Assembly: GCA_017535105.1 (NCBI GenBank)
Contig: JAFXUI010000004.1
Location: forward strand, 62,001-126,000
Direction: 5' to 3'
DNA length: 64,000 nucleotides
From: Alphaproteobacteria bacterium
GTDB lineage: Bacteria > Pseudomonadota > Alphaproteobacteria > Rs-D84
The notes beneath the pieces are model-generated. The model saw only the letters and a list, made by a program, of their open reading frames with translations, had not been told where the DNA came from and did no database searches. The position numbers were made by a program, and so were the translations under genes. Below are positions 982-47,957 of the stretch, piece by piece (the first letter of the stretch is position 1; each line of letters begins with the position of its first letter).

Positions 982-2061
982 TTATTTCACACGTATCGGA
1001 ATAATTGTTTGGTCTTTGATAGCATCCAGTGGCGCATATTGAAAACGAACACTGGCAAAATCAATGTCGTTCATATCTATGGAGCGCACTGTGCGATTAT
1101 ACATTGTGTGATAGTACACAATTTTATTGCCCAAATCGGTCGCGATTGTCCACTGGGTCGCGGACGGCATATTGTTTGTTGCCTTGCCAGAATCAAATTC
1201 AACACTCAAAGGAACGTCCAAATTGTTCAACAAGTGAAAAGCCTTCATTACCGCGTCATAGCCGTTTGGTTGTTGAATTGAATAATTACTTAACAATGCT
1301 GCACGCACAAATCGTGATGGTGGTGTAAAGTCGCCGGGCAGCCCCAACATACCACTGTCGGAACCATACGCGCGCAGGGTGATGTTGCCAACTTTCTTTG
1401 GCTCTGAGGTTCCAGGTTTCAGATTGATATAATTGTTTAGGTTCATTACGTGCCACGGATAGTTCGGTGAATTTGCAATTGCACCAACAACGCTGTCGTA
1501 AAAATGCGCCGCGCCATCAACAAATTCCAAAATCACTTGTTTGCCGGTTGCATCGGTTATGCGCCAGTGTACCGTTGACGCCGATGGATCAACATTTGTG
1601 ACGGTTATGTATTTGATTGCTTCTTGGATTTCATCGATTGTGGCAAAGCGCGATAACATCCATGCGACTAACTCGAAATCAGCAATACTGTCAGATTTTC
1701 TGGTGGGGTTGTATGTCGGGTATTTGCCATAGTCCGGGAAATAAAACAGCCCGGCGGAAAGACCCGCTTCATTCGTGCCGTCGATTACAAAGTCTGGCGT
1801 TTGTACCGCAATGCCGACATAGCCATATACGGATGTGAATTTTAATCCGTCCATTTTACCGCCCGGGGTCAATGATGTCTGGGTATGGCCACGTGGCGCG
1901 ATAACGTACATGCTGTTCATTTCGTCACCATGCCAATCAACAGTTCGCGCAACAATCGTATCGCCATCGCGCGCGTGCAGTGTCAGCCCCGTACATGCGT
2001 GACCGTGATTTACGATTCCAAGTATCCCCGCAAGAGTAATTGCAAATAGTTTTATATTCAT
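982..2061 (-). CDS. Secreted choloylglycine hydrolase / penicillin V acylase family protein (Ntn-hydrolase)
   Basis: This is a linear-amide C-N hydrolase of the Ntn superfamily (bile salt hydrolase/penicillin V acylase family), 359 aa. A signal peptide (residues 1-22, ending HGHA) leaves Cys23 as the new N-terminus, which is the catalytic nucleophile of this family. Arg39 and Asp42 in ARTVDW match the usual Arg and Asp, NEAGLSAG and NSPNYPWH give the conserved Asn blocks, and PSRFVRAA supplies the second Arg. Such enzymes cleave amides such as conjugated bile acids, penicillin V or acyl-homoserine lactones. Substrate cannot be told from sequence; periplasmic members from Gram-negative bacteria often act on penicillin V or AHLs rather than bile salts. 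The gene is monocistronic, sharing a terminator with the convergent 520-954 gene. Confidence 0.88.
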   Translation of the reverse strand: MNIKLFAITLAGILGIVNHGHACTGLTLHARDGDTIVARTVDWHGDEMNSMYVIAPRGHTQTSLTPGGKMDGLKFTSVYGYVGIAVQTPDFVIDGTNEAGLSAGLFYFPDYGKYPTYNPTRKSDSIADFELVAWMLSRFATIDEIQEAIKYITVTNVDPSASTVHWRITDATGKQVILEFVDGAAHFYDSVVGAIANSPNYPWHVMNLNNYINLKPGTSEPKKVGNITLRAYGSDSGMLGLPGDFTPPSRFVRAALLSNYSIQQPNGYDAVMKAFHLLNNLDVPLSVEFDSGKATNNMPSATQWTIATDLGNKIVYYHTMYNRTVRSIDMNDIDFASVRFQYAPLDAIKDQTIIPIRVK

Positions 2062-3026: not shown

Positions 3027-3054
3027 AACCGCCGTTTCAGGCGGTTTTATTTTT
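3027..3054. terminator. Bidirectional hairpin terminator
   Basis: AACCGCC-GTTTCA-GGCGGTT with T run on the plus strand and an A/T-rich run on the other side. It overlaps the stop codon end of the minus-strand kinase gene. Confidence 0.75.
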
Positions 3055-3769
3055 TTACTGGGTGGGTGTTTTTGTATATTGTCCACAGATTTTCAAAACT
3101 GGCTTTATCGATGTTGGGGTCGGGTACGATTTGTAAAGAGTCCCAGTCAATTACACTTATTACGTTATATTTGTTGTCTAATAATAAATTGCTGGCATTC
3201 AAGTCCAAGTGTGCCAGAACCGATTTTTTTGTTATACGTGGGTGCGCGGGCAACTTGTCTTGTAAGCCATATAAAAAACGCGTATTGTCGGGAATCGACT
3301 TAACCGGAATCGACTGCATATCGTCAATCATTTTTATAACCGCCGATTTGATTTTCTTTTCGTGCTTTAATATTTGGACAACGTCCATATCGCGCAAATC
3401 GACACCGGGCAATTTATCCGCCACATACATCGGAATATGTTTTGCGACAAAAACGTTCGGTATATTCACAGACAAATGTGGTCGTACCAAATTCATTAGA
3501 AATTGGAAATTGTTTAGTCGTTCAATTGATACGTCACGAAAGACTTTTACATAATAACGATTATTCACAACACATGTCATACGATTGACACTGACCTGGC
3601 GCACGAAACGAATTGTTTTTGCGCGCACGCCGTATGTTTTGCGAATAAACCGCGCGATTGGAATATAGAAAAAGAATACATTTATCGCACCACGAACACG
3701 GCGGCGACGTTTGCGTCCCGGAATAATGAACGATATAAATGTTCCGATAAAAAACGGTATTCTGTACAT
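3047..3769 (-). CDS. APH-fold small-molecule/sugar kinase, 240 aa
   Basis: The protein has the layout of the aminoglycoside phosphotransferase/choline kinase fold. YYVKVFRD (near residue 75) offers the ATP-binding Lys, HLDLNASNLLL (near 187-197) is the catalytic loop with H-x-D and the metal-binding Asn at the normal +5 spacing, and VIDWD is the DFG-equivalent. The N-terminus is hydrophobic then strongly basic (PGRKRRRRVRG), which could bind membrane. Two further paralogs lie at 4853 and 5595, and a GT8 glycosyltransferase is divergently transcribed next door, so phosphorylation or decoration of a surface glycan or lipid is the likely job (inference). Of the three kinases this one alone keeps a canonical catalytic loop. 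Confidence 0.75.
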   Translation of the reverse strand: MYRIPFFIGTFISFIIPGRKRRRRVRGAINVFFFYIPIARFIRKTYGVRAKTIRFVRQVSVNRMTCVVNNRYYVKVFRDVSIERLNNFQFLMNLVRPHLSVNIPNVFVAKHIPMYVADKLPGVDLRDMDVVQILKHEKKIKSAVIKMIDDMQSIPVKSIPDNTRFLYGLQDKLPAHPRITKKSVLAHLDLNASNLLLDNKYNVISVIDWDSLQIVPDPNIDKASFENLWTIYKNTHPVKK

Positions 3770-3840
3770 TTTTGACTTTCGTTTTCGGTATTATAGCACA
3801 GGTAAATAAAAAATATAAAGCAATATTGTTATTTGCTTTT

Positions 3841-3870
3841 TTGTTTGGTTTAGGCTAATCTTCATATACA
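3841..3870 (+). promoter_or_regulatory. Probable promoter of the GT8 gene
   Basis: TTGTTT (3841-3846) and TATACA (3865-3870), 18-base spacer. A good ribosome site AGGGGGA precedes the ATG at 3898. Confidence 0.5.
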
Positions 3871-3897
3871 GATTATAAAAAGACACAGGGGGAATTT

Positions 3898-4812
3898 ATG
3901 TATAAATATGGATTTTTTCGGCGTGTTGCATCAAGCGTTGCGGGGTGCTTTGGTCGTTCGCGTCCGCAAAGACGACTGAATCGCGATCTTATTCGTTATC
4001 ACGGTTTGATTGCTACTGTGGGTCAAACAAAAATTCCACGTCAAAAATATCCGACAAAAATTCCAATGGCGTTTTGCTTTGATGCGCGTGGCGCAAAAAT
4101 GGCGGCGGTGACGATGAAGTCGTTGCTGATGGCATCGGACGGTCGTTGCGATTATGATATTTATTGCGTGATTGGCGAAGATGTTGATAAGTCCGTGTGT
4201 GATATGGTACGCGGTGTCGCGAAACCATATAAATCATCGGTGCATTTTGTTCATGGCAACCACGACTTTGATGAATCAAAACGGCGTAAGTGGCCAATTG
4301 CGATGTGGTATCGTTTGATGTTGCCAAAGTTGTTACCAAATGTTTCGCGTATTATCTATGCCGATATGGATATGATATTCTTTAACGACTTGATTGATAT
4401 TTATGAATATGATTTGGGTAAAAATGTAATTGCGGCGGTTCCAACGCGCCCGGACAATTATATCAATTCCGGATTTTTGTTGATGGACTTGGATAAAATC
4501 CGCAAGGAAAAAATTTATGAAAAATGGATTCGCGCATCGCAAGAAAACGATTATTACAACCCCGACCAAGACGTGTTGAATTACACGTTACAGGGTCGAA
4601 TTGCGTTTTTGCCGTTGCGCTATAACTTCCAGATTTCACATGGGTCGCGTATATTCAAATTGTATTCCAAAACACAAATTGACGATTTAAAACATAATCT
4701 GGTTTGTTTACATTATTCCGACTATGTAAAACCATGGAGTAATGGCGTTCGTCCGGTGTTTTCGGAATATTGGTGGAATGTTGCACGGCAAACGGGGCTT
4801 TATAAAGACTAA
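3898..4812 (+). CDS. GT8-family glycosyltransferase, 304 aa
   Basis: This is a retaining glycosyltransferase of the lipopolysaccharide galactosyl/glucosyltransferase type (GT8, RfaI/RfaJ-like). It begins the domain at MAFCFDARGAKMAAVTMKSL (residue ~58), has the metal-binding DxD in YADMDMIFF (~155-160), the acceptor-side INSGFLLMDL and the DQDVLN block, and ends with LHYSDYVKPW, the equivalent of the H-x-G-x-x-KPW motif of the family. There is no signal peptide; the enzyme should work at the inner face of the membrane using a UDP-sugar. An extra basic N-terminal 40 residues precedes the fold. It is followed by two APH-fold kinases on the same strand. The acceptor is unknown. Confidence 0.88.
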   Translation: MYKYGFFRRVASSVAGCFGRSRPQRRLNRDLIRYHGLIATVGQTKIPRQKYPTKIPMAFCFDARGAKMAAVTMKSLLMASDGRCDYDIYCVIGEDVDKSVCDMVRGVAKPYKSSVHFVHGNHDFDESKRRKWPIAMWYRLMLPKLLPNVSRIIYADMDMIFFNDLIDIYEYDLGKNVIAAVPTRPDNYINSGFLLMDLDKIRKEKIYEKWIRASQENDYYNPDQDVLNYTLQGRIAFLPLRYNFQISHGSRIFKLYSKTQIDDLKHNLVCLHYSDYVKPWSNGVRPVFSEYWWNVARQTGLYKD

Positions 4813-4815
4813 TGG

Positions 4816-4844
4816 TTGCGCGGGTGTAAAAAAAGTCATAGAAT
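4816..4844 (+). promoter_or_regulatory. Promoter of the tandem kinase pair, leaderless type
   Basis: TTGCGC (4816-4821) and TAGAAT (4839-4844), spacer 17. Expected transcript start is about 4851, only two bases before the ATG at 4853, so the mRNA is probably leaderless; no Shine-Dalgarno is present. Confidence 0.55.
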
Positions 4845-4852
4845 AAAACATT

Positions 4853-5602
4853 ATGTTACATTTTATATCTAATATTATTTGCTTTGTTATTCCGAACAAA
4901 AAACTTCGGGATAAAGTGCGCGTGATGATTCGTTATCCGCGTGTGTTTGGTTATGTTCGCTTTGTGCGGAATTATGCTCGTAATATGAAGAAGCGCGATA
5001 TACAAACACGGGTGGGGCGGGGCTGTAAAAACTTTGTCGTGTTGTTAAACGATAAATATGTGTTTAAGTTCCCGTTGATGTCGGACGGTGTTGCGGTTGC
5101 GCAACGTGAAAAGCGCATAACTGATGCGTTGCGCCCGATTTCACCAATTAAAATTCCAGATATGAAAATAATGACACACAATGGAATTGCGGTTCGCCGT
5201 TATGAATTTGCACATGGAACATTGTTGTCCGATGTTGAGCCACGTGTGTTTGCCGTGCATCGTGATAAAATCGCAAAACAAATTGCAAAAATGATTTATA
5301 CAATCGGTGAATCTGACCCGGAATCAATTCGCGATTTAAAACCAACGCCAAATGCAAAGCCAGATTATCTGTATGGCTGGTTCCAGGGCGATATTTGGCA
5401 AAACTTTATGTTGGACGATGATTTTAATATAACATATTTTATTGATTGGGAAGATACCGCGTTTCAAAGTTTTCTGCCGGCGTTATATGTCGCAACGCGT
5501 ACCTGGGAAAAGCGCGGATACGCGTATATGGGGGTCAGTGTTATGGCCGAATATTCCAAACTGTATTTCAAAAATCACAAGCGGGCAAAAAGCAATGCGT
5601 AG
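4853..5602 (+). CDS. APH-fold kinase-like protein with altered catalytic loop, 249 aa
   Basis: Paralog of the gene at 5595: both share the stretch KYVFKFP (ATP Lys), then REKRITDALRPISPIKIP and AVRRYE. The catalytic loop reads WFQGDIWQNFML and is followed by FIDWED. Compared with the canonical H-G-D-x4-N, the His is Gln and the Asn sits at +4 from the Asp rather than +5. Thus it may be a divergent kinase or a pseudokinase. No signal peptide. The gene overlaps the next one by 8 bases, so the two are translationally coupled and probably act together. Context (GT8 upstream) suggests a glycolipid or lipopolysaccharide substrate. Confidence 0.75.
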   Translation: MLHFISNIICFVIPNKKLRDKVRVMIRYPRVFGYVRFVRNYARNMKKRDIQTRVGRGCKNFVVLLNDKYVFKFPLMSDGVAVAQREKRITDALRPISPIKIPDMKIMTHNGIAVRRYEFAHGTLLSDVEPRVFAVHRDKIAKQIAKMIYTIGESDPESIRDLKPTPNAKPDYLYGWFQGDIWQNFMLDDDFNITYFIDWEDTAFQSFLPALYVATRTWEKRGYAYMGVSVMAEYSKLYFKNHKRAKSNA

Positions 5603-6299
5603 GGTTTTAGCAAATATCATTTCTGGTTTGATTCCGGGGCGCAGAAATCGTCATTATGTTCGTGCGCGCCTTAAAACACCGATTCATAAATACATTCGGT
5701 TCGTTAAAAAGTTTTCTGCGTTGCGTCACCCAAAAGTGCGAAAAGTATTCGGTTATCGCTGTGCGAATTTTGTTGTGATACTGGATAATAAATATGTTTT
5801 CAAGTTCCCGATTCGTAATGATGGTCGCGTGGTGTCGGAACGCGAAAAGCGCATAACCGATGCGTTGCGTCCAATATCGCCAATTAAAATTCCAAAAATG
5901 GAAATCTTTGATTGCGATGGTGTTGCTGTGCGCCGCTATGAATACATTGCGGGCGTGGGATATCATGCGCTGGACGAACAAACGCAAATGAAATATGCGG
6001 ATAAAATAGCAAAACAAATCGCAAAGTTTTTGTATGTCACGGGTGGTGCGGATCCGGTTGAAATTCGTGATTTGAAGACGGTGCGTTCTGAACGCGCACG
6101 GGTAATGCACGGTTGGAATATATGTGATTTGTGGGAAAACATAATATTGGACCCAAAGACAATGGACGTTAGTGCGGTCATTGATTGGGAGGGTGCAAAG
6201 TTCTGTGACTTTCATACACTGTTCACGCAGGGGCGGCGTAATACGATTTGCCAAACACCGCTTTTGCGTGAGTATTTGAAATATTATATCAAGAAATAA
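5595..6299 (+). CDS. APH-fold kinase-like protein, tandem paralog, 234 aa
   Basis: The start at 5595 (MRRVLANIISGLIPGRR) is chosen because it overlaps the upstream stop by 8 bases (ATGCGTAG) and aligns with the N-terminus of the upstream paralog; a longer in-frame extension to 5442 only shadows that gene. KYVFKFP gives the ATP Lys, the shared block REKRITDALRPISPIKIP is identical to its neighbour, and the loop GWNICDLWENIIL then AVIDWEG contains the Asp and Asn but no His, with Asn again at +4. The tandem pair is a recent duplication. Role inferred as above: modification of a surface glycan, or a regulatory pseudokinase partner. Confidence 0.75.
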   Translation: MRRVLANIISGLIPGRRNRHYVRARLKTPIHKYIRFVKKFSALRHPKVRKVFGYRCANFVVILDNKYVFKFPIRNDGRVVSEREKRITDALRPISPIKIPKMEIFDCDGVAVRRYEYIAGVGYHALDEQTQMKYADKIAKQIAKFLYVTGGADPVEIRDLKTVRSERARVMHGWNICDLWENIILDPKTMDVSAVIDWEGAKFCDFHTLFTQGRRNTICQTPLLREYLKYYIKK

Positions 6300-6520: not shown

Positions 6521-9500
6521 ATGTCTATTACCACCAAAATACTGTCAAATTCTTTAATCGGCTTGGTTTCCGTATTGCCTGCATTGCTTGTTATGCCGGC
6601 GGTTGCTGGTGATCCGTATATGGCTGGTGACGCGTTTGTGTTCGGCGATATCGTTGTGGACGGAACAAATGGCACATTGATTGATAATATGGCGATGGGT
6701 GGTCGTCGTATGACGGGTGATGGTGTACACAATGGATATAATAATGTGTTTCCTAATTACAGTATGTATGGCAGTTCAATTGAGGTTCAGACACCAACAT
6801 CGGGAACAAATCTTTTGTATGTTGGACCAGTGTCTTTGACGCTTGGTGATTTGGGTGAAAAGGCTTTCAGATATAATTTCCAAAAGAACGATAACGATAT
6901 TGATATGGCAGCCACTGGCGGTATTGTATGGAACGAAGAAATTGGTAATGGTACAGACGGACAGTTGTTGGCTAAGGTTGCCTCTGTGACGGAAGATTTG
7001 GTGGCCGCGGGTCAATCTGTTGGTGGTGTATATCTGTATTCGCGTAAGGGCGATGGCAGTAAATCTGGTACATTGTCATTGGCAAAAACAAATGCACAAA
7101 TTGATGGTGCGACAGTAAACGCAAAATCAATTTCTGTTGCCGGAAATTCAAAGGTTGATATCGTAAAACAAGATACAAGTGTACTTAACACGGCGGAAAG
7201 ATTTTATACGTCGGCTGGCGATATTGCAAATGCCTCTGGCATTACAACATTAAGCGCGACAGACACAATCAATATTGATGGTTCGCAAGTGAATGTTGGT
7301 GCGGGCACAACATTGGCATTGAATTCTGGTAATGATGCCGAAGACGGTACGACATTCCAAAATCTTGCCAGTGATACAGGTGCGTTGTCTGTCATAGATG
7401 GTTCTGTGACAACAAGTGGTAAATCATTAGTGTTTGCGGATAATACATCGTCATCACATGGTGCGGGGCTTTATTATAAAACTACGGCAAGTGGTGTAGC
7501 TTCGTCAGTCGTGTTGAATTCTGATTCAGTAACGTTCAGCAATAATACATCAGATTATTCTGCCAGCAGTGGCGGTGCATTGTTTAATTCTGGTGGTGAT
7601 GTTTCGATTCTGGGTGATACAAGTACGTTTACGGAAAACAAAACCTTGGGAACAGGATCAAAGTTGTACAAGCGTGGTGGTGGTGCGATTGCCAACCAGT
7701 CTTATGAATCTGAAGCCGCTGCAAATAAGGTCGGTTTGAATGCCACAATGGTTATTGGCGATGCCAACAGCGTGAATTCATTTACCAGCAACACTTCGTC
7801 TATGAACGGTGGTGCGATTATGAATCGTGCAGTTGATACCGATGGCGATGCATCATTGACAATCAATGGAACAACAGCCTTTACTGGAAATTCCGCAGCA
7901 GGAAAGGGTGGTGCAATTTATAATATGCGCGAGTTGTTGACGTTTGAACCAGGTGAACACGTTGCGGATGTCACAATCAATGGTGTGTCAAATTTCGCAA
8001 ATAATACAGCTGGTCAAACTGGAGGTGCTATTTATAACTCTGGTAATATGACAATAGCTAATTCAACATTTACTGGAAACAGAACGACATCTATAAACTT
8101 TGCGACTGATGCAGAAGACCCGACAAATGATCCAGCACAAGGTGGCGCTATCTATAATTCTGGAAGTGATGTTGTTTGGGAATGGGACTCTGATGCTAAA
8201 TTCTCATACAATGGTGTGTTGAATATTTCTAATACGAATTTTGGTCTTAAAGAAGACGTGGCATCTGGAAACCAATCTTTACAAGGTGGTGCGATTGCTA
8301 ATGCCAGAGCTAACGGTTTAGATGGTGAGGTGACTTTAACCAATACAAACTTCTATAATAACAAGGCATATGCCGATACAGATGACTCTGATGGGTATAC
8401 GTCATCTTTGGGTGGTGCTATATGGAATCAGGGTGTTATGACCATCAATGGTGATACAGAATTTAAGGGTAATACAGCCGAAGGTTATAATGTAGAAGGT
8501 GGTGCGATTTACAATAGTGGCACATTAACTATTAATGATATGGCTGTATTTGATTCCAACACTGCTACAGATATAAATTCTGGTAATGGCGCGTACGGTG
8601 GTGCCATATCAAATGCTTATAACAAGAGTATTACATTCAAAGATGAGGTAACATTTACAAACAATAAAGCACTGAGTAGCGCTGATAAAGGAACACAGGG
8701 TGGTGCTATTTATAATGCTGACGATGCAACTGTGACATTTGAAAAAGCTGCATTATTCAGTGGTAATGAAGCAACCTATGGTGGTGCATTGTTTAATGAT
8801 GATGGCGCAACTATAAATTTAATAGATGCTTCGTTTACAAATAATACTGCAGGTGATGAAGGTGGTGCAATATTCCAGATATTTGGTACAACAAACATCA
8901 ATGCAGTTGATAGTGATGTTTTGTTCAGTGGTAATACGGCAAATGGTGTCGCAAATGATATCACTAACTATGGTGGTACAATAAATCTTGATGCGGCTGC
9001 TGGGCGCACAATTTCGATGAACGGCGGTATAACGGGTCATTCGTCTTTGGCTGGCATGAGCGAGATTAATATTGTTGGCACAGGAACGGTTGAAACGTCG
9101 ACAATCAAAAATCAGACTGTTGCGGTTGACGCTGGTGAATTGCACTTGGTCAATGGTGCGGCTGATGGTTCGAACTTGTTGGGTTCAACAATCACGGTTG
9201 CAGATGGTGCAACAATCAACACGATTGATAACCTGATTAACGATTATACTGGTGTGATTACTCTGAATGACGGTGCGCGTGTCAAAGGTGAATTGAACTT
9301 TATCGACGGAACCGCCGACAGATACAGTGGTGACAGTGGTACAATATATTACCAAGTTGCAAAATTGCTTGGCAATATCGGTTCTGGAACGAAAACAATT
9401 CAGATTGCCGAAGCTGGTTCAACAATTGATGTTGCTGGGGCGTCTGCATTATTCAACACAGATACAGGTATGACATTGGCAAGTTCGGGTAATGCCGATG

Positions 9501-12358
9501 GTAAATTGAGTGTCACAGGTATTGCTGGTGGTATTACAAGCGCAGTCGAGGCAACTGAAAATTATAACAATGTTCAGTATGATATGACGGCTAATGATGC
9601 TATTACTACTGCGCAAACCGTTCACCAAGATATGGTTATGAATGGTGCGGGTACTGAATCGACAGATCCAAAGTTGGCAATCAATCAGGACTTGACTGTT
9701 GGTGACGGTTCGACAGACAAACCAACAGCCGAAATCAATGAAATGAACATTGATATTGCTTCGGATAAAAAGTTGACTGTTGAACAGGGTGCAACGATGG
9801 CACTTAATGATTCCAATGTAATTGGTGATGGCGCTATCCTTAACAAGTTGGGTGCTACAACCAAGGTTAAAAACTCAACAATTGATGTTGATGTTAATAC
9901 CGCTGGTACGTGGGAATCTGACCCAACGATTTATTCGGGAACGGTCAACAACACTGGTATTGCTTCGTTCGATGAAGATACATTTACATCTACTGGTGTG
10001 TTGAATAATACGGGCAGCGCGTTCTTGATGCGTGGTGTTACGTTTGATAACGGTGCAACAATCACTGGCAATGGCACAACAACATTGACGGCGGGGTTGA
10101 CACACTTTGACGACACAACGGGCACGTCAAACGAAAACACTATTTCGTTGGCGCGTGGTGCAACATTTGATGGTAAATTGGCAAATGCTTTGACCGGTGT
10201 GTTGGATACACGTAATGGTGGTATCGACACTGGTTTGGGTACTGTCACCGGTGGCAAGGTTTATGTTGATGCTGATTATGTTGCGAACAAGATAGATTCG
10301 TTTGCCGGTGCGACAACCCTTGATAAAATCAACCTTATCAATTCTGAATATGGCACGGCAGAAACGGCTAATTTAGATTTGGGTGGCGCTTCATTGGCAT
10401 CGGGCGCCAAATTCTCGGGCGGGTATTATACAGCGATGACTGACAATGGTGATGGCACAGTTACATTCAGCGATAAATTGCTGAATACATCTGGCTTTTA
10501 CTCCAAGTTGGGTTCATGGGTCGATGGCAATAATATCAAGCAAAGTTCAAGTATGGACCATGCCGCAGACGGAACGACATATATGAGTGTCGGTCAGGCG
10601 CTGACAGCGTTGGATAATGCGATTGGTGACAGATTGTACGTAACAAATGGTGGTTATGCTGGCACATTGTTATCAGACAGCCAATCTGTTGCAGCATCGA
10701 TATTGGCAATTGCTAACCAGACAGACGTGAACACAACCGATATTGCGGGTAAGCAAGCGCAATTGATGAACAATGCTGGAACACCGGCGGCAATCAGTTC
10801 GACAGTGTTAACGTCAATCAATATGACACCTGCATCTGCATCTGATACTGCGCTGGTCACAGAAAAGGCGATAAGCACAGCGTTGAGTACAAAGTTGGAT
10901 ACAGCAACGGCGTTGACAACGTATGCGGCTTTGGCAAATGATAATACGTTTGTTGGTTCACAATCGATTGTGAACAACAAGGATTCTGTGGGTGTTGGAA
11001 CAACAGCATTCACTGTTTCTGCAATGGATACCGATGCGGCAAATGGTGGTACAAATGCTTCTGCGGCGACATTCACTGTGAATTCACAAGGTGTATCGGT
11101 CTTTGGTGGTTTCACAACGGACACATTGGCAACCACGGGTGATGCAACAGTTGGTGGCAATTTGACAACAACTGGTAACGCAACAGTACATGGCAATGCG
11201 ACAATCGATGGAACATTGACCGCCGGTCAAACAACGATTTCCAAAGTTGCGGCTGACGACAGTGCGACAACAGCAATGACTGTGACAGCCGGCAATACCG
11301 AAGCCACTCACACATTGATTGTTTCAACAGCAGGTGTCACGGTTGACGGCAACGCGGTGTTGACCAGTGCAAGTGAATTGGGGACGGGCAACATTGCCGA
11401 TGATGCGGTTACATTAGACAAGATTGCTGATGCAGCGATGACTTCATCTGCGGTTGCTGCAAACAGCACAGGCACCAAGTTGGTGAACGAATCATCTTTG
11501 GCGGCCACACGTCAAGCAATCGACAGCGATGCAAATGCTGTCTTGGGTGGTGTGTATAACATTGATGGAACAACCAAGGCGGTATCTTATGACGCGTCTG
11601 CGTTGAACAGCAATTTGTATAAAGCCAATGGCTCTGGTGATGCTTCGGCAAACTTGACAAGTGCTATGAACAACATGGCGACAAATGTCCAAGCAATTAC
11701 CGGTGGTTCTATGTCGAACACAGGTACAGTTGTGACAGACTATGCAAGCAACAACTATGTGGCTGATAACACATCTTTGGTCACAGCGGTTGGTGCGTTG
11801 GATACAGCAGTCAAAGCAAATGCTAATACAATTGGTGACGTAGATTATTCAGACGAAGCAGCAGTCGCGGGTTCGTTCCTGTCGGTTGGTGGTACAGGTA
11901 CAACAACCGTACGTGGTGCCTTAGATGTTTTGGATACTGCGGTCAGCACACACGAAACAACGTTGGGTAATATGAATGCGTTGACTGGCGCACATGTCAC
12001 AAGTGGTGCTTCGGTTGCATCGAACCTTGACCAATTAAGTTTGGCAATTGACGCGGCGACAACAACCGCAGTGAACCAAGCGGCGACATATACCGACCAA
12101 CGTATCGAATCCATTGACAAGAACTTGTCAGCGGGTGTCGCAGGTGCAGTTGCGTTGTCTTCGGTCGCGGTGTCGGGTGTTGAACGTGGCGAAGTATCGG
12201 TTGGCGCAGGTTATGGTTACTTTAACGGTCAATCGGCGGCAGCATTTGGTGCGGCAATGGGATTGTCGAACCGCTGGTCCGTCAATGCGGGTGCCGGTAT
12301 ATCTAATTCAGATGTATCGTTCCGCGCCGGTACAAACTATAAGTTCAAATTGTTCTAA
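6521..12358 (+). CDS. Giant surface adhesin: Pmp-like GGAI-repeat passenger with YadA-type trimeric anchor, 1945 aa
   Basis: A secreted surface protein. Residues 1-29 form a signal peptide ending AVA. Residues ~345-785 hold about a dozen GGAI[YFWM]N / GGALFN repeats alternating with F-x-x-N-x-A blocks, the pattern of chlamydial polymorphic membrane proteins and related beta-helices. Residues ~830-1480 continue as Thr/Gly/Asn-rich beta-helix-like repeats. Residues ~1580-1650 resemble tail-fibre or trimeric-adhesin stalk (TTGDATVGGNL-type repeats). The last 83 residues (from ESIDKNLSAGVAGAVALSS to the terminal Phe) are a YadA-like membrane anchor with a coiled-coil lead-in and four beta-strands. 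YadA anchors trimerise and export the passenger (type Vc). Combining that anchor with Pmp repeats is unusual. Monocistronic, with its own promoter and terminator. Confidence 0.85.
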   Translation: MSITTKILSNSLIGLVSVLPALLVMPAVAGDPYMAGDAFVFGDIVVDGTNGTLIDNMAMGGRRMTGDGVHNGYNNVFPNYSMYGSSIEVQTPTSGTNLLYVGPVSLTLGDLGEKAFRYNFQKNDNDIDMAATGGIVWNEEIGNGTDGQLLAKVASVTEDLVAAGQSVGGVYLYSRKGDGSKSGTLSLAKTNAQIDGATVNAKSISVAGNSKVDIVKQDTSVLNTAERFYTSAGDIANASGITTLSATDTINIDGSQVNVGAGTTLALNSGNDAEDGTTFQNLASDTGALSVIDGSVTTSGKSLVFADNTSSSHGAGLYYKTTASGVASSVVLNSDSVTFSNNTSDYSASSGGALFNSGGDVSILGDTSTFTENKTLGTGSKLYKRGGGAIANQSYESEAAANKVGLNATMVIGDANSVNSFTSNTSSMNGGAIMNRAVDTDGDASLTINGTTAFTGNSAAGKGGAIYNMRELLTFEPGEHVADVTINGVSNFANNTAGQTGGAIYNSGNMTIANSTFTGNRTTSINFATDAEDPTNDPAQGGAIYNSGSDVVWEWDSDAKFSYNGVLNISNTNFGLKEDVASGNQSLQGGAIANARANGLDGEVTLTNTNFYNNKAYADTDDSDGYTSSLGGAIWNQGVMTINGDTEFKGNTAEGYNVEGGAIYNSGTLTINDMAVFDSNTATDINSGNGAYGGAISNAYNKSITFKDEVTFTNNKALSSADKGTQGGAIYNADDATVTFEKAALFSGNEATYGGALFNDDGATINLIDASFTNNTAGDEGGAIFQIFGTTNINAVDSDVLFSGNTANGVANDITNYGGTINLDAAAGRTISMNGGITGHSSLAGMSEINIVGTGTVETSTIKNQTVAVDAGELHLVNGAADGSNLLGSTITVADGATINTIDNLINDYTGVITLNDGARVKGELNFIDGTADRYSGDSGTIYYQVAKLLGNIGSGTKTIQIAEAGSTIDVAGASALFNTDTGMTLASSGNADGKLSVTGIAGGITSAVEATENYNNVQYDMTANDAITTAQTVHQDMVMNGAGTESTDPKLAINQDLTVGDGSTDKPTAEINEMNIDIASDKKLTVEQGATMALNDSNVIGDGAILNKLGATTKVKNSTIDVDVNTAGTWESDPTIYSGTVNNTGIASFDEDTFTSTGVLNNTGSAFLMRGVTFDNGATITGNGTTTLTAGLTHFDDTTGTSNENTISLARGATFDGKLANALTGVLDTRNGGIDTGLGTVTGGKVYVDADYVANKIDSFAGATTLDKINLINSEYGTAETANLDLGGASLASGAKFSGGYYTAMTDNGDGTVTFSDKLLNTSGFYSKLGSWVDGNNIKQSSSMDHAADGTTYMSVGQALTALDNAIGDRLYVTNGGYAGTLLSDSQSVAASILAIANQTDVNTTDIAGKQAQLMNNAGTPAAISSTVLTSINMTPASASDTALVTEKAISTALSTKLDTATALTTYAALANDNTFVGSQSIVNNKDSVGVGTTAFTVSAMDTDAANGGTNASAATFTVNSQGVSVFGGFTTDTLATTGDATVGGNLTTTGNATVHGNATIDGTLTAGQTTISKVAADDSATTAMTVTAGNTEATHTLIVSTAGVTVDGNAVLTSASELGTGNIADDAVTLDKIADAAMTSSAVAANSTGTKLVNESSLAATRQAIDSDANAVLGGVYNIDGTTKAVSYDASALNSNLYKANGSGDASANLTSAMNNMATNVQAITGGSMSNTGTVVTDYASNNYVADNTSLVTAVGALDTAVKANANTIGDVDYSDEAAVAGSFLSVGGTGTTTVRGALDVLDTAVSTHETTLGNMNALTGAHVTSGASVASNLDQLSLAIDAATTTAVNQAATYTDQRIESIDKNLSAGVAGAVALSSVAVSGVERGEVSVGAGYGYFNGQSAAAFGAAMGLSNRWSVNAGAGISNSDVSFRAGTNYKFKLF

Positions 12359-12375
12359 GGAACTTAGAAATAAAA

Positions 12376-12403
12376 ACGCCGCCCAAGTGGGCGGTGTTTT
12401 TTA
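12376..12403. terminator. Bidirectional terminator between adhesin and ccrM
   Basis: GCCGCCC-AAGT-GGGCGGT stem flanked by A5 and T6 runs, serving both convergent genes. Confidence 0.85.
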
Positions 12404-12416
12404 TATTCTTTTTTTA

Positions 12417-13517
12417 TTATGCGGCTTGTTTCATATCGCGTTTAATGTCGCGGACGTATTTACGTAATTCATCAATTGGAACCAATGTGCCATCGCGCTT
12501 TTGTGCCGACCAATAATCCCAACCATTAAAACTGACGCAATTTTGTATGCGGGCCGCCATAACGTGAATTGATGCCTTGCCATACAGGGTGTGTACCAAT
12601 TGCCCATCATGTGAAATCATAACGCGATCGCCACGTGGCCCAACCAACGTTTGTCCGACATATAATAATCCCGCGTCAATAAGTTCACGGAACGCAACAC
12701 GTGGTTCGGCACGTTTGGGCGCGGAAACCTCTATATCCGACAAATCAATTGGGGTGACATTCGCAACGCGTTCACGTGCCGCAGACACGTATGATTCTTC
12801 GCGGTCAATGGCGATAAAGTTGCGGCCCAATTCACGTGCCGCCGCCGCCGTTGTTCCCGAACCAACAAATGGGTCCAAAATAATATCGCCGGGCTTGGTC
12901 GATGCCAAAATTACACGGCGCAATAAATCCAGTGGCTTTTGTGTATTGTGTAAACTTTTACCATTGGCATCTTTGATACGTTCTTCGCCCAGACAGATAT
13001 TGATACCCCAATCAGAACGCATTTGTTTGCCGCCGTTTAACTTCTTCATCGTTTCGTAATTAAACGTATATTTGCCAGTCTTACGCGGGGTCGCCCAAAT
13101 AAGCGTTTCGTGGGCATTTGTGAATCGGGTGCCACGGAAGTTTGGCATCGGGTTTGTTTTTACCCAAACAATGTCGTTCAATATCCAAAAACCAAGATCT
13201 TGTAAGATTGCGCCAATGCGGAAAATATTATGATAACTGCCGATTGTCCAAAAAGAACCGTCGGGCTTTAATACGCGTTTACATTCTGCGACCCAACGGC
13301 GTGTAAATTCATCATATTCTTTGGAATCTGCGAAAGAATCCCATTCGTCACGAACAGCACGTGCCGCGGTTTGATCTTCGGGTCGATAAAGCGTTTTTGC
13401 GCCCAATTGTAAATTATATGGCGAGTCCGCAAATACCGCGTCAACCGATGCGTCCGGTATGCCACGCATAACGTCAATACAGTCACCCGATAAAATCTTA
13501 TTCAGGTATTTATCCAT
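12417..13517 (-). CDS. ccrM: Cell-cycle-regulated DNA adenine methyltransferase (GANTC)
   Basis: The enzyme methylates adenine in GANTC and is a hallmark of Alphaproteobacteria, where it helps time the cell cycle. The 366-aa protein matches CcrM along its length: the catalytic motif near residue 32 followed by YNLQLG, the conserved GSYHNIFRIGAILQDLGFWILNDIVW, NPMPNFRGTRFTNAHETLIWA, then HNTQKPLDLL and the S-adenosylmethionine motif DPFVGSGTT. The C-terminal DNA-recognition domain (from RAEPRVAFRELIDAGLL) with FNGWDYW is present. The catalytic motif reads D-S-P-Y instead of the usual D-P-P-Y. No restriction partner is nearby, as expected for this orphan methylase. I see no convincing CtrA box upstream. 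Confidence 0.95.
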   Translation of the reverse strand: MDKYLNKILSGDCIDVMRGIPDASVDAVFADSPYNLQLGAKTLYRPEDQTAARAVRDEWDSFADSKEYDEFTRRWVAECKRVLKPDGSFWTIGSYHNIFRIGAILQDLGFWILNDIVWVKTNPMPNFRGTRFTNAHETLIWATPRKTGKYTFNYETMKKLNGGKQMRSDWGINICLGEERIKDANGKSLHNTQKPLDLLRRVILASTKPGDIILDPFVGSGTTAAAARELGRNFIAIDREESYVSAARERVANVTPIDLSDIEVSAPKRAEPRVAFRELIDAGLLYVGQTLVGPRGDRVMISHDGQLVHTLYGKASIHVMAARIQNCVSFNGWDYWSAQKRDGTLVPIDELRKYVRDIKRDMKQAA

Positions 13518-13616
13518 TCTCTCGCGTCTTTTAACACATATATTTTATCATATTTCGTGGTAATTAAAAAGCGGAGTGCAAGGGGAGAAATGAAAATAAA
13601 ACTCTTGATTTTTATA

Positions 13617-13632
13617 AAAAATGCATTTTTTC
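13617..13632. other. A6TGCAT6 palindrome in the ccrM-nrdR gap
   Basis: A perfect 16-base palindrome of six A, TGCA, six T lies in the divergent gap between ccrM and nrdR, followed by a G run and T run. It could be a terminator remnant or a protein site. Nothing else is evident in 13518-13680. Confidence 0.35.
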
Positions 13633-13695
13633 GGGGGGCTTTTTTTATAAATTATGCTTGCGCGCAGTGCTTTTGATTGCTACTGTTATATAATC

Positions 13696-14196
13696 ATGAG
13701 ATGCCCATATTGTAATTCTAGTGATAGTCGTGTTGCGGACTCGCGCCCAGACATAGGAGACGCGGTTATCCGCCGTCGTCGCGTTTGTAACCAGTGCGGC
13801 GCAAAATTCACAACGGTTGAACGTGTACAAATGCGCGATTTGACGGTGCGCAAGAACAGTGGAAAACTTGAACCGTTCGATCGTGAAAAGTTGGCGCGCA
13901 GTATTAAATTGGCATGTCGCAATCGTGATGTTGGTGATGACCAGATTGATAAATTGGTGACATCGATTCATCGCCGCTTGGAAACAGAAACCGCGGACGA
14001 TATTGTACCCAGCAGTTTGGTCGGCCAAATGGTTTCCGATTCGTTGCTGAACCTGGACCCAATTGCGTTTGTGCGCTTTGTTTCGGTGTATCGTAAGTTT
14101 TCAAAAATATCTGACTTTAAGAAGATTATTGACCAAATACCAGAGGATGATGAGGGAGCAGTGGTCTGTAAGTTACCGAAAACCTCACTGTTTTGA
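13696..14196 (+). CDS. nrdR: Transcriptional repressor NrdR
   Basis: NrdR is the ATP/dATP-sensing repressor of ribonucleotide reductase genes. The start at 13696 gives the invariant N-terminus MRCPYC. The zinc ribbon uses Cys3, Cys6, Cys31 and Cys34 around RRRRVCNQCGAKFTTVER, and the ATP-cone runs from about residue 46 (VRKNSGKLEPFDREKLARSI) to FVRFVSVYRKF. The 166-residue length is typical, with a slightly long tail. A TATAAT (13689-13694) abuts the start codon, so the real promoter may be a different one or the transcript is leaderless. Only one base separates its stop from the next gene start, so nrdR, slt, rnhB and pgk look like one operon. No nrd gene is in the window. Confidence 0.95.
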   Translation: MRCPYCNSSDSRVADSRPDIGDAVIRRRRVCNQCGAKFTTVERVQMRDLTVRKNSGKLEPFDREKLARSIKLACRNRDVGDDQIDKLVTSIHRRLETETADDIVPSSLVGQMVSDSLLNLDPIAFVRFVSVYRKFSKISDFKKIIDQIPEDDEGAVVCKLPKTSLF

Positions 14197-42743: not shown

Positions 42744-45700
42744 ATGGTAAAAAAGATACTGCCGTTTTTGTGTAGTTTGGCGCCATTGTATGCGTTTGGT
42801 GCCGATATTGTTGATATTCCAGCCAGTACAGATACTATAAATCTGACGACAAATAAGTATGCTGTGATTACTGCGGGAACGGGTGTAAATGTCACAAATA
42901 CTGTCGATATTGATGGGTTCCTTAGTGTTCTTAATGTGGCAAGTGTTACCCCACCGGTCAGTGCGGGTGGCGATTTATATGTTTTGAATACGGCGGGCTC
43001 GGCGGCGGGTGTGTTCGGCCTTACCAGTGGTGGCGCGATGTCTATTGACGGTGATGTCAGTATTGATGCAACGCGCGGTTTAAGTTTAAATGGCAGTGTG
43101 CCTGTGGCGATGACGATTGGTGGTGATGTTGCCGCAAATGGTTCGTTTACGGTCGCAAATGCAACAAATTTTTCTTCGGGTGCAATAACATCTGCGGACG
43201 TGTTGTCGATTGATGCAACAAGTATTACAAGTGGAAATATTGTTTCGTCAAATGGAGCTTCGCACGTTGTTGCGACCGGTGCTTTGAATATCGGTGGATT
43301 TAAAACCCAGGGAACATCGGGTAACACAACTATTGGTGGTGCAACAATTGCAACGGGTGATATACAGAATGCTGTTGGCACAATGACAATTACATCGGGC
43401 GGTGTGTTTACTGGCTCGGGCAGTATCGAAAATTCTGGTACCAAGTTGGAAATTGATGCGGGCGCAATGACAATTGCGGGTACACTGAAAAACGATGCAA
43501 CAAATGGCACGTTGGATATAGCAGCAACATTGTTAACGGTAAATGGTGGTGACGCAAATAATTCTTCGTTTGTGAATACTGGGGTTGCGGTATTTAATGT
43601 TACGGGTGCGACCACGTTTGCAAATGGTATGAATTTGTCGGGTATGGTAAATAACGGCACGACACAAACAGACAGTTTGACTCTGAATACCGGAACATTG
43701 TCGTTGGGTACAGATACAATAATCGCAAATGATAATGCGGTTGTAAATATAACGGTGAACAATGGTGTGTTGGGTAATGTGACAACGCCAACAATCGCGA
43801 TTTCTAATGGTGATCCAGAGGATACTAATGCACACAATAACGCGCAAATGACGTTAAGTGGTCGTGGTGTTGGTGTGACAACGGTTTATAACAATGGTGG
43901 TACACTTACCATTGGTACGGGTGGCAATACCAACAGTGATGTTATCAAGATTTCTGGTGGTGTCACCGCATTGGCGGGTACGACAACAAACATTGGTACT
44001 GAAAATAACACCCAGGCATTAAATATTGGTGGTAATGTTTCTAATGCTGGAACGATGAAGTTGTATGGCAAAGATATAACTTTGGCGGGTGTTTCTAACA
44101 ATGGTGCAAATTCCAGTTTGATTATCAGTGCGCCGACCAGCAACGGTTCGGTGACTATCAATAATGCAATTACAAATGCGGTTGGTACAACATCTATTAC
44201 TGCAAGGGACGTAACATTGCATGGTGTTACAAATACAAGTGGTACATTTAATATCACTGGTTCGGACAGCGCGGGTGTTGCGCTTTCATCGGGTGCAATC
44301 ACTGTTGATGGCGGTGTAATGAACCTGAATGCATGGGCCGGTGGTGTTTCTGCGGATTCTGTTGCGGTAAACGGTGGTGTGTTAAATCTTGGTAATTCTG
44401 TATATGGTTTAACATCGGCGGGCAATATCAGTGTTGCCGGTAATGTGAACTTGGCGCCGGCTGGTGCAACGGGCGCGGGTGATGTTTATTTAACCGCAAC
44501 CGGCAGTAATATATCATTCTCGTCAACTGGTGGTGATGTAACGGTTGGTGGAAACATTGTCGCAACGGCAAACGACAGTATCCGTTCTGCAACATTTGAT
44601 GGTACAACAATAAAAGTGTTGGGTGCCAATGGGGTCAGCGCCCAGAACAAAGGTCGTGTTGTTTTTGGAACTGCGGGCACGACATCAACACTGAATATTA
44701 CGAATGCTTTAAGTGCTACGAATGGTGGTCGTGTTGATATTTATTCTGGGACATCAACGGCGGCATCTGTTACGCAATCGGGTACGGGTATAATTGCAGC
44801 GCATAAAGATAGTGGAAGCATTGTTGCGAACAATGGTGCGATAAATATTTCAAATGGTGTTTGGTTTGATTCAACGGCGACTGCAACCAGTGGTTTGTTT
44901 GTTGATACAACTTCTGTAGATGCGTTTACATTAAAAACAGATGCAACGGCGGCGGGTACCGATATCACAATAAACAATGGAATGTCGGTGGCCAGTGGTA
45001 AAACATTAAGTTTAGATTCCGCGCACGATGTGTCGATTGCAGGTAACGTTGGGTTGGCGGGTGTATTAGATGTTGATGCGGTAAATGCGGCAACGTTTAA
45101 TGGTGCGGTCACAACAAGCGGTGGTTTTGATGTTGTGGCCAAGACAATAAAGGTTGCAGATGTCACAAATAATGCGGGTACGGTATCATTAGACGCAAGT
45201 GTTGTCGATGGTTTAATTACATCGTTTGCAAATAATACGATAACAAACAGTGGTAACTTTACCGCAAATGCCGACAAAAATATTGACTTTGGTACGTTTG
45301 GTTCAACGGCGGGTACCGTTACAATAAATTCGGCAAATGGTAATGTCACGACTGGTGCGTTTTCTGTATCGGGCGGTACAGCGGCGGTGACTGGCGCGGT
45401 TGTGAATTTGGCGTCGCTGAATTTAACTGCGGGTGAAACAACAATCACAAGTGATGATATCAATATTACTGGTGCGGCCAACATTACCGGTAATATGATT
45501 CAGGGTGGGGCGGTGGCCAGTGCTTTACAGTTGGTGAACACATCAACATTTGATGCGACAAGTTTGACAATTACATCGGGTGGATTTACCGCAAGTACCG
45601 GTGCAACAACATATACTATTGCTGGTTTGGCTGATATGGGTACAGGTATTACAGTTGCAAATAACGCAACGGCAAATATTATCAGTACAAACAATGCGAT

Positions 45701-47957
45701 TACTACATCGGGCGATATTACAAATAATGGTGTGTTGTCGTTGGTAGCATCAGGGGTAACAGCCAATGACATTATCAACAACAAGACATTGTCTGTTGAT
45801 ATCGGCACAGGTGTATTGGGTGCCACATCGTTCGCAAATAACACGGGTGCAACAGCTGTCTTGACTGGTACGGGTATGAACTTGACCGGAACAACGACAA
45901 TCGCTGGTAATTTGTATCAGAATTATGCGGGTGCGTTGGCATCGGGTGATGTAAATATCGATACAAACAATTATACGATTACTACATCGAATCTTGCGGT
46001 GACAAGTGATATCAATCAAACTTCGTCTGCTTTGATTGTGAACAGCAGTGATGTTTCGGTTGGTGGCAACATTATCGCAACAGATTTAACTATCAATGCA
46101 GATCCAACAACGACTTGGTCAACAATTGCTGTGACTGGTAATGTTTCGGGCAATGTAAAAATACGTGGTCTGAAACGTATGACGATTGGTGGCAATTATC
46201 TGTATGATGATAACAGTATGTTACATGCGGCGATTTTGCCATATCCGACATTGAACTATTGGGCAGATGTTTCGTTGGCTGATGATGATACGTTGGGTCA
46301 AATTACAAACCGTGACAATGACCCGCACAATGCGTTGATTTATGTTGGTGGTCGTTTCGCAAGCGATATATCAATAAACAATCTGGGTGACGATTTGAAC
46401 AGTGAACCATTGGTTGCACCACAAATGGGAATCAATTTGTACAGTGTTGTTGACCAGGGTTCTGCGATTTGGTTGTTGTATGCCGATGGTGGTTTAAGTG
46501 ATTTGGCAACCAAGATTCGTAATTTGAAGGTTAATTTCTGTAATGCCGATGGTTCAAAATGTTTCAATTACTTTGACTCATTCTCTACGGTTGGTGTTGT
46601 GAACCCAGCGAACAGCGCAACCGAAGACGATTTGCCAATTTATCTGTCGGTGCGTGATTATGATAATGATGGTGTGAACGACAGTTTGTATATCGTGTTT
46701 GATCCACGCTTTGGTGGGCCGGTGAAAGTGTTTGATACCGAATCGATTGTTGATCGTGTGACCGACAGTACCGATGGCGAAGTCATGTCCGCAAATGCGA
46801 TTGATGAAATGATTGCTGGTCAATTGTTGGATAGCGGTTTTGCAACTGATTCACCAATTGAAGCAATACCAATTGCCTTTGCTGATACGAATTTGTCGGA
46901 TTTGGCGAACGAATTGTATGACCGTATGGAACAGTATGTTATTGACCATAATGGTACATCGTTGGCAAGAATGGCGCGCTTGTTACAGCCACGTGAAATT
47001 GAACAGTTTGCTGGTGATGTTGCGTTAAATGAACATACAACTTTCCGTGGATTCGAAGACCACATGTTTGATGAATTTATTTGGAATCGTAATCGTAACC
47101 TGAAAAAAGCATGGTTCGATGTTGATTTCGGAATGTTCCGTCATGACGTATCTGATAATAAAACATTATTGGGTAATCGCTTTAATGTCACTGCGGGCTT
47201 TGATTGGAAGTCTTCATCAAAATCTGTATTAGGATTGGCGGCACACGTTTCGCACATGGTGTCGAAAAATTCTGATGATATGGATTTGGGCTATATGCCG
47301 GGTGTTTCTATTGCAGGACATAACAGCACAGAAGTTGCCGATACAAATATCGGAATTGGTGGCTATTTAATGCACACATTGGGGACCAAGGCTCGTGTTT
47401 ATGGAAATGCCTTTATCGACATGCATTTGTTTGATGTTTCACGCCAAGAAAACTATGTTTCCGATATTGATGGATTTGGTACCGCGTTCAGTTTGATTTC
47501 GGAATGGGGCTTGATGCACGATTGGTTGAATCAATACGTTGTTGGTAATTTGTATGCGCGTGTCGGATATAACTTTGGATTCTCGGTACGTGAAGATGCA
47601 GATGATGAAGAATATATGCATTTGACATCTGACGGTTATGCGATATTCACACCGGGTTATTCATTGATTGCCCAGAAACGTATTTATACATCGCCATGGT
47701 TCCAAATTCGTCCGTATGCATCAATTGGTGTTGAATATGACGTGTTGGGAATGCCAGATGTTACAAAATACAAATTCGCATCGGCAAGATCGTATACCGA
47801 ATATGAAATCGACCACGATCCATTGTGGACAAATATCGGTTGCGGTTTAGAGATGTTGTCTGCGGGTGGGTACCAGGTTGGATTTGATTATCGCTATCAA
47901 TATAACGAGTTCTTACAGATTCATAACTTGCGCCTGTCGGGTTCATACAGATTCTAA
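42744..47957 (+). CDS. Autotransporter with beta-helix passenger and C-terminal barrel, 1737 aa
   Basis: Classical type Va autotransporter. Signal peptide residues 1-19 (ending AFGA). From ~25 to ~1150 the passenger is a Gly/Asn/Thr/Ser-rich repeat of beta-helix rungs (ITNNG, NGGVL, GGNI-type repeats); no protease or known binding motif is seen. Residues ~1150-1440 form a junction (FDPRFGGPVKVFDTESIV, then an alpha-helical stretch). From ~1455 (WFDVDFGMFRHDVSDN) a 12-strand-type barrel runs to the end, finishing LRLSGSYRF with the final aromatic. Passenger is likely surface displayed, perhaps an adhesin. Bracketed by its own promoter and a bidirectional terminator with polA. Confidence 0.88.
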   Translation: MVKKILPFLCSLAPLYAFGADIVDIPASTDTINLTTNKYAVITAGTGVNVTNTVDIDGFLSVLNVASVTPPVSAGGDLYVLNTAGSAAGVFGLTSGGAMSIDGDVSIDATRGLSLNGSVPVAMTIGGDVAANGSFTVANATNFSSGAITSADVLSIDATSITSGNIVSSNGASHVVATGALNIGGFKTQGTSGNTTIGGATIATGDIQNAVGTMTITSGGVFTGSGSIENSGTKLEIDAGAMTIAGTLKNDATNGTLDIAATLLTVNGGDANNSSFVNTGVAVFNVTGATTFANGMNLSGMVNNGTTQTDSLTLNTGTLSLGTDTIIANDNAVVNITVNNGVLGNVTTPTIAISNGDPEDTNAHNNAQMTLSGRGVGVTTVYNNGGTLTIGTGGNTNSDVIKISGGVTALAGTTTNIGTENNTQALNIGGNVSNAGTMKLYGKDITLAGVSNNGANSSLIISAPTSNGSVTINNAITNAVGTTSITARDVTLHGVTNTSGTFNITGSDSAGVALSSGAITVDGGVMNLNAWAGGVSADSVAVNGGVLNLGNSVYGLTSAGNISVAGNVNLAPAGATGAGDVYLTATGSNISFSSTGGDVTVGGNIVATANDSIRSATFDGTTIKVLGANGVSAQNKGRVVFGTAGTTSTLNITNALSATNGGRVDIYSGTSTAASVTQSGTGIIAAHKDSGSIVANNGAINISNGVWFDSTATATSGLFVDTTSVDAFTLKTDATAAGTDITINNGMSVASGKTLSLDSAHDVSIAGNVGLAGVLDVDAVNAATFNGAVTTSGGFDVVAKTIKVADVTNNAGTVSLDASVVDGLITSFANNTITNSGNFTANADKNIDFGTFGSTAGTVTINSANGNVTTGAFSVSGGTAAVTGAVVNLASLNLTAGETTITSDDINITGAANITGNMIQGGAVASALQLVNTSTFDATSLTITSGGFTASTGATTYTIAGLADMGTGITVANNATANIISTNNAITTSGDITNNGVLSLVASGVTANDIINNKTLSVDIGTGVLGATSFANNTGATAVLTGTGMNLTGTTTIAGNLYQNYAGALASGDVNIDTNNYTITTSNLAVTSDINQTSSALIVNSSDVSVGGNIIATDLTINADPTTTWSTIAVTGNVSGNVKIRGLKRMTIGGNYLYDDNSMLHAAILPYPTLNYWADVSLADDDTLGQITNRDNDPHNALIYVGGRFASDISINNLGDDLNSEPLVAPQMGINLYSVVDQGSAIWLLYADGGLSDLATKIRNLKVNFCNADGSKCFNYFDSFSTVGVVNPANSATEDDLPIYLSVRDYDNDGVNDSLYIVFDPRFGGPVKVFDTESIVDRVTDSTDGEVMSANAIDEMIAGQLLDSGFATDSPIEAIPIAFADTNLSDLANELYDRMEQYVIDHNGTSLARMARLLQPREIEQFAGDVALNEHTTFRGFEDHMFDEFIWNRNRNLKKAWFDVDFGMFRHDVSDNKTLLGNRFNVTAGFDWKSSSKSVLGLAAHVSHMVSKNSDDMDLGYMPGVSIAGHNSTEVADTNIGIGGYLMHTLGTKARVYGNAFIDMHLFDVSRQENYVSDIDGFGTAFSLISEWGLMHDWLNQYVVGNLYARVGYNFGFSVREDADDEEYMHLTSDGYAIFTPGYSLIAQKRIYTSPWFQIRPYASIGVEYDVLGMPDVTKYKFASARSYTEYEIDHDPLWTNIGCGLEMLSAGGYQVGFDYRYQYNEFLQIHNLRLSGSYRF

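Follow-up and report, generated by a model that had tools for sequence, protein, structure and literature searches.

A Pmp-repeat passenger on a YadA-like anchor recurs in gut Alphaproteobacteria and suggests translocator exchange at one chromosomal site

Introduction

Type Va and type Vc autotransporters are regarded as distinct classes, each with its own passenger folds. A large autotransporter review groups the Pmps with the classical autotransporters, and the literature searched, which covered the field partially, held no description of a Pmp-repeat or beta-helix passenger combined with a trimeric anchor. An open-reading frame in a 64,000-nucleotide stretch of an Alphaproteobacteria bacterium genome (contig JAFXUI010000004.1, hereafter the window) seems to join the two, which raises the questions of whether the combination is real, where else it occurs and how a type Va passenger could come to sit on a type Vc anchor.

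Results and discussion

Domains of two secretion classes on one polypeptide

The gene (6521..12358, + strand) is an uninterrupted 1945-aa open-reading frame from ATG to stop, with PF02415 and PF03895 both above their cut-offs, and an intrinsic-terminator-like stem and T-run, read from the sequence, follows right after the stop codon (12376..12404, + strand). All parts of the protein are given on the same strand. It starts with a Sec-type signal peptide, read by eye (aa 1-29, ...LIGLVSVLPALLVMPAVAG; 6521..6607), whose VLPALL(V/I)MPA core is also the opening of several of the type Va Pmp proteins in this genus, followed by the part of the passenger ahead of the repeats (aa 30-333; 6608..7519), which by BLAST shares 35-39% identity with some other hybrids. 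The Pmp-repeat region, a predicted right-handed beta-helix (aa 334-815; 7520..8965), holds 13 GGA[ILFVM] motifs at aa 351-781, spaced 27-48 aa apart, whilst 2000 shuffles of the protein gave a mean of 0.95 such motifs and a maximum of 5. An earlier note on this DNA had seen about a dozen GGAI-type repeats at residues ~345-785, a range that proved right, and had called them Pmp-type, as HMM search also does: Chlam_PMP (PF02415) matches with an E-value of 6.2e-27 and 91 bits against a cut-off of 20.6, in seven stretches at aa ~351-785 (Pfam), and POMP_repeat (NCBIfam) with 2.3e-8. A chlamydial origin, as the note's term "chlamydial-type" might suggest, is not apparent, with Pmp repeats present in 85 of the 142 genomes of the window's own family.

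Beyond the repeats lie a conserved module that the earlier note had overlooked (aa 816-1370; 8966..10630) and a variable stalk (aa 1371-1874; 10631..12142), which in BLAST and hybrid comparisons shows little similarity between hybrids except in its final ~100 aa. These include a YxD motif (YTD, aa 1857-1859; 12089..12097) that lies at the neck above the anchor and is invariant in all five hybrids aligned. The protein ends in a YadA-like four-strand trimeric anchor with a terminal Phe (12143..12355), the type Vc C-terminus that had been proposed, correctly, for the last 83 residues: PF03895 (YadA_anchor) matches aa 1890-1942 (12188-12346) with an E-value of 1.8e-9 and 37.9 bits against a cut-off of 22.7 (Pfam), and aa 1843-1938 match the solved trimeric autotransporter AtaA (9vnj, E-value 1.2e-4). 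Signal peptide (by eye) and anchor thus stand on one polypeptide, as type Vc requires. Pfam found neither a PF03797 barrel nor a known type Vc head or stalk family in the protein, and Pfam and NCBIfam gave no enzyme family match. This is the sole YadA anchor in the 870-kb genome, which encodes one Omp85/BamA-like protein.

The hybrid recurs in two families

Repeats in metagenome assemblies may produce false joins, and the gene might in principle be an assembly or gene-calling chimera of a type Va Pmp gene and a YadA gene. We give this a negligible chance, and it was ruled out because hybrids recur in other genomes: the identical domain order, in one open-reading frame, is found in eleven others of varied samples, and the hybrids have in common the intermediate module and the flanking synteny.

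Taking PF02415 and PF03895 in a single open-reading frame, each above its Pfam cut-off, as the mark of a complete hybrid, we count 12 further hybrid genes, 11 of them complete (L040, L041, L042, L043, L044, L061, L063, L065, L086, L087 and L110; L043 only barely exceeds the PF02415 cut-off, at 20.7 bits) and one ended by a contig edge (L111, with repeats and module, whose contig ends before any anchor). Under L060, L062, L066 and L069 stand the genes also listed as L040, L044, L042 and L041, respectively; each was counted once. The hosts, represented by sequence data mostly from metagenome-assembled genomes, are gut and rumen Alphaproteobacteria of Ca. Enterousia and of a second family of the class, f91 (L086, L087 and L110), from samples that include sheep, yak and water buffalo. 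A published survey assigns Enterousia to the order Rs-D84 and puts its genome size at about 0.75-1.0 Mb (PMC12306168). To judge by its anchor, synteny and size, the window's own genome probably belongs to Enterousia as well. Of the 142 genomes of the window's family, 58 have YadA anchors, and those Pmp proteins of the genus whose type was determined with Pfam are mostly on type Va barrels (PF03797).

In class-wide samples no genome outside these two families held PF02415 and PF03895 together, and no YadA-like C-terminus was seen on the Pmp-repeat open-reading frames inspected in other classes of the phylum and in two other alphaproteobacterial families, some of which were incomplete at the end. 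Viral contigs yielded no relatives of the anchor, and against phages and plasmids the only matches to the whole protein were plasmid repeats of Methanosphaera, at 31%. The unusual architecture named in the earlier note, Pmp repeats on a YadA anchor, is therefore a real and recurrent combination, and a rare one.

A conserved module marks the hybrids

The region between repeats and stalk (aa 816-1370) is conserved among hybrids at 38-46% identity, the f91 hybrid L087 included, and used as a BLAST query it matched hybrid open-reading frames only. A local scan of all fetched open-reading frames with a 524-position profile of the module likewise placed it in hybrids only. In full length it is present in seven of 134 genomes of the window's family and in three of 43 f91 genomes, besides one short partial match in the latter (the L086 match has an internal gap). 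Every open-reading frame with the full-length module has Pmp repeats, and also the YadA anchor unless a contig end removes it. Elsewhere among 316 genomes of the class no full-length module was found, the other matches being N-terminal pieces of 54-73 residues in three open-reading frames of other genomes (E-values about 1e-5). As only N-terminal pieces were found elsewhere, the module is similar to the common Pmp helix in its first rungs, and the remainder marks the hybrids. Phages and plasmids gave no relatives of the module.

Predicted fold of passenger and module

AlphaFold modelled the module, with a mean pLDDT of 84.6, as a right-handed beta-helix with a C-terminal cap, the beta-solenoid ending near residue 505 of the 570 residues modelled and giving way to low-confidence helices at the start of the stalk. 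In VIA-align the module model is closest to Vag8 (Z 19.3 over 267 residues), then to a tailspike and pertactin (Z 17.5). The passenger (aa 30-1000) was modelled with a pLDDT of 80.0, its initial ~150 residues poorly, and counts pertactin (Z 19.9), UpaB (Z 19.0) and a phage tail protein among its neighbours. These models are of single chains and derive from shallow alignments of 8 rows. Foldseek returned weak E-values and low TM-scores, so the fold assignments rest on pLDDT and the VIA-align Z-scores. On that footing a single long right-handed helix, of the kind seen in type Va, is predicted for each chain, and the module is predicted to be a pertactin/Vag8-type right-handed beta-helix that leads into the stalk.

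Since the type Vc passengers described in a review are trimeric (PMC6555100), and GGAI-type repeats alone are no proof of a monomer helix, the trimer might instead be intertwined throughout, with the Pmp-like repeats forming a trimeric or interdigitated solenoid as in other type Vc heads. We consider this unlikely: the single-chain models are confident right-handed helices whose neighbours include pertactin, UpaB and Vag8, and the passenger is homologous, from its signal peptide onwards, to one that a type Va protein carries on a single barrel (see below). Three monomer helices standing side by side, the arrangement that we prefer, would be an extrapolation with its precedent in phage tailspikes.

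Proposed exchange of the translocator at one site

The window hybrid sits between genes for a GT8 glycosyltransferase and APH-like kinases on one side and, on the other, a convergent gene for a CcrM-like adenine methyltransferase (12417..13517, - strand; PF01555, E-value 2.2e-64), then nrdR. The methyltransferase gene is the conserved neighbour that marks the site in synteny comparisons, and the upstream markers are the GT8 gene and two APH-like kinase genes (3898..6299, + strand; PF01501 and PF01636), the second of which has no Pfam match and is a BLAST relative of the first. The usual arrangement at hybrid sites is nrdR-ccrM-[adhesin]-kinases-CBAH. The ccrM side is retained in L060, L061, L062, L063, L065 and L066, where the downstream neighbours are 73-97% identical to those of the window, and in L147 too; in L069 the CBAH gene is present and ccrM does not adjoin the hybrid. 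In most of the other relatives that were examined, the site lacks an adhesin.

Two genomes, G090 (locus L131) and G100 (locus L146), carry a 1076-aa protein at this same site, with the same neighbours on both sides. In L131 it combines PF02415 repeats with a PF03797 type Va barrel (Pfam); the L146 copy was identified by length, repeats and C-terminal motif. The two proteins look alike and may represent one event. Over the first ~600 aa, signal peptide included, the type Va protein of the site shares 39% identity with L066, 36% with L065 and 32% with the window protein, and the alignments with hybrids end at about type Va residue 620, near the start of the module. Because a type Va protein with a homologous passenger occupies the same site, and the alignment ends near the module, we read this as translocator exchange: the comparison is best explained by one or more swaps of the translocator beneath a homologous Pmp passenger at one chromosomal site, presumably towards the trimeric anchor.

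A tree of 44 anchors placed the hybrids in two clades with a very long branch between them, one a group of eight hybrids with Enterousia-type anchors and the other L043 with the f91 hybrids, so the same module is found on two unlike anchors. With ~43% identity between the modules of the two families, the hybrid type may predate the genus, and a good many relatives lack an adhesin at the site; both points fit a history of two unrelated acquisitions, in which the hybrids are an old separate family and the G090/G100 type Va gene arrived by chance at a hotspot with no exchange. Such a history deserves some weight, yet it is the less likely one given that the N-terminal ~600 aa align between type Va protein and hybrids from the signal peptide onwards (39% with L066), that the alignment ends close to the module start and that both flanks share their neighbours. 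We therefore retain exchange as the preferred reading of the site.

Other genes of the site were noted in passing. GT8 and several APH-like kinase genes (window 3047-6299) are kept beside the adhesin in several hybrid loci, and the APH-like kinases are kept in type Va loci also; their products could modify lipopolysaccharide or the adhesin. The CBAH gene (choloylglycine hydrolase family; window 982-2061, - strand; PF02275, E-value 1.1e-58), found in most hybrid neighbourhoods, possibly encodes a bile-salt or amide hydrolase of a gut alphaproteobacterium. In L065 the hybrid is followed directly, before ccrM, by a type Va-like Pmp gene (10255-14187, + strand) that has a TTG start and a signal peptide of its own, so that Vc and Va adhesins stand in tandem.

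How the hybrid may work

YadA-type barrels are built of four strands from each of three chains, with the Bam complex assisting insertion, and in the type V route hairpins pass out and the stalk folds (PMC6555100, PMC8151025). YxD-type motifs are described in the coiled coils of trimeric autotransporters (PMC6555100). From these parallels we infer trimerisation and the following course of export and folding for the hybrid. The signal peptide would direct Sec export, three anchors of four strands each would assemble with BamA into a single 12-strand barrel, the chains would pass out and the stalk would coil outside. The module (aa 816-1370) would then fold to give each beta-helix its lower part and cap, joining three independent helices to the trimeric stalk, whilst the N-terminal Pmp-repeat helix would fold last and form a binding surface for host or microbial surfaces. 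Following the putative exchange, the passenger would have diversified strongly whilst anchor and neighbours stayed conserved.

We regard it as probable that the protein is an outer-membrane surface protein displaying three type Va-like beta-helices by the trimeric (type Vc) route, likely an adhesin, and that it arose via translocator exchange. The same display might serve a non-adhesin, be it a structural, enzyme-like or phage-receptor surface protein, and polysaccharide lyases and trimeric phage tailspikes do figure among the beta-helix neighbours of the models. That function appears unlikely, because a strongly diversified passenger beside conserved neighbours is often seen in surface binding proteins, adhesin functions are described for essentially all type Vc proteins studied (PMC6555100), and Pfam and NCBIfam assigned no enzyme family; adhesion thus stays the favoured role.

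A more far-reaching reading, to which we lean by a little, is that the hybrids form a distinct type V subclass in which a trimeric anchor exports and holds three independent helices via a dedicated adapter module, with Va and Vc translocators exchangeable under a homologous passenger at one site. If true, the adapter would reconcile monomer helices with a trimeric stalk despite their mismatch in symmetry.

Relation to known systems

The Pmps of Chlamydia and of the same genus (type Va, PF02415 with PF03797) share with the window protein the signal peptide and a beta-helix passenger of GGAI/FxxN repeats; unlike them, it has no PF03797 barrel and has an extra beta-helix module, a stalk and a YadA anchor. 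With YadA and AtaA (type Vc) it shares the Phe-terminated anchor, the YxD neck motif and the stalk, whereas the prediction for its head, in place of a trimeric one, is a long right-handed beta-helix of the monomer type. The predicted fold of passenger and module resembles pertactin, Vag8 and UpaB (Z 17-20), which, in contrast, are on single-chain barrels. The tailspikes of phages P22 and CBA120 are right-handed beta-helices held as trimers and offer a physical precedent by fold similarity only; no membrane anchor serves for their export. The domains, the secretion route and the classes of fold are already known, and what appears new, within the literature searched, is their combination. A natural family that carries a Va-type helix over a Vc anchor and has Va relatives at its site makes it testable whether passenger folding is independent of the translocator type, and how three large beta-helices traverse one 12-strand barrel. 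It also illustrates the diversification of surface proteins in genome-reduced gut bacteria.

Other surface proteins

In the hybrids L060, L061, L063, L043, L111 and L087 a long N-terminal extension, MKQT(K/R)TTxKELTAxYRAVLRHGILCNAIALGLIATAPAMA, replaces the VLPALL signal peptide; hybrids of the two families thus share it with the type Va protein of L091, and it gave no ESPR match in Pfam. A second large surface protein of the window's reduced genome is encoded by a 1737-aa open-reading frame (42744-47957, + strand), which had no match in the Pfam protein scan and shows a weak C-terminal type Va barrel (PF03797, E-value 2.8e-6). Loci L026, L027, L028, L030, L072 and L073 hold very short open-reading frames (213-254 aa) that end with a YadA anchor and in several cases show a signal peptide; they would be unusually small trimeric autotransporters.
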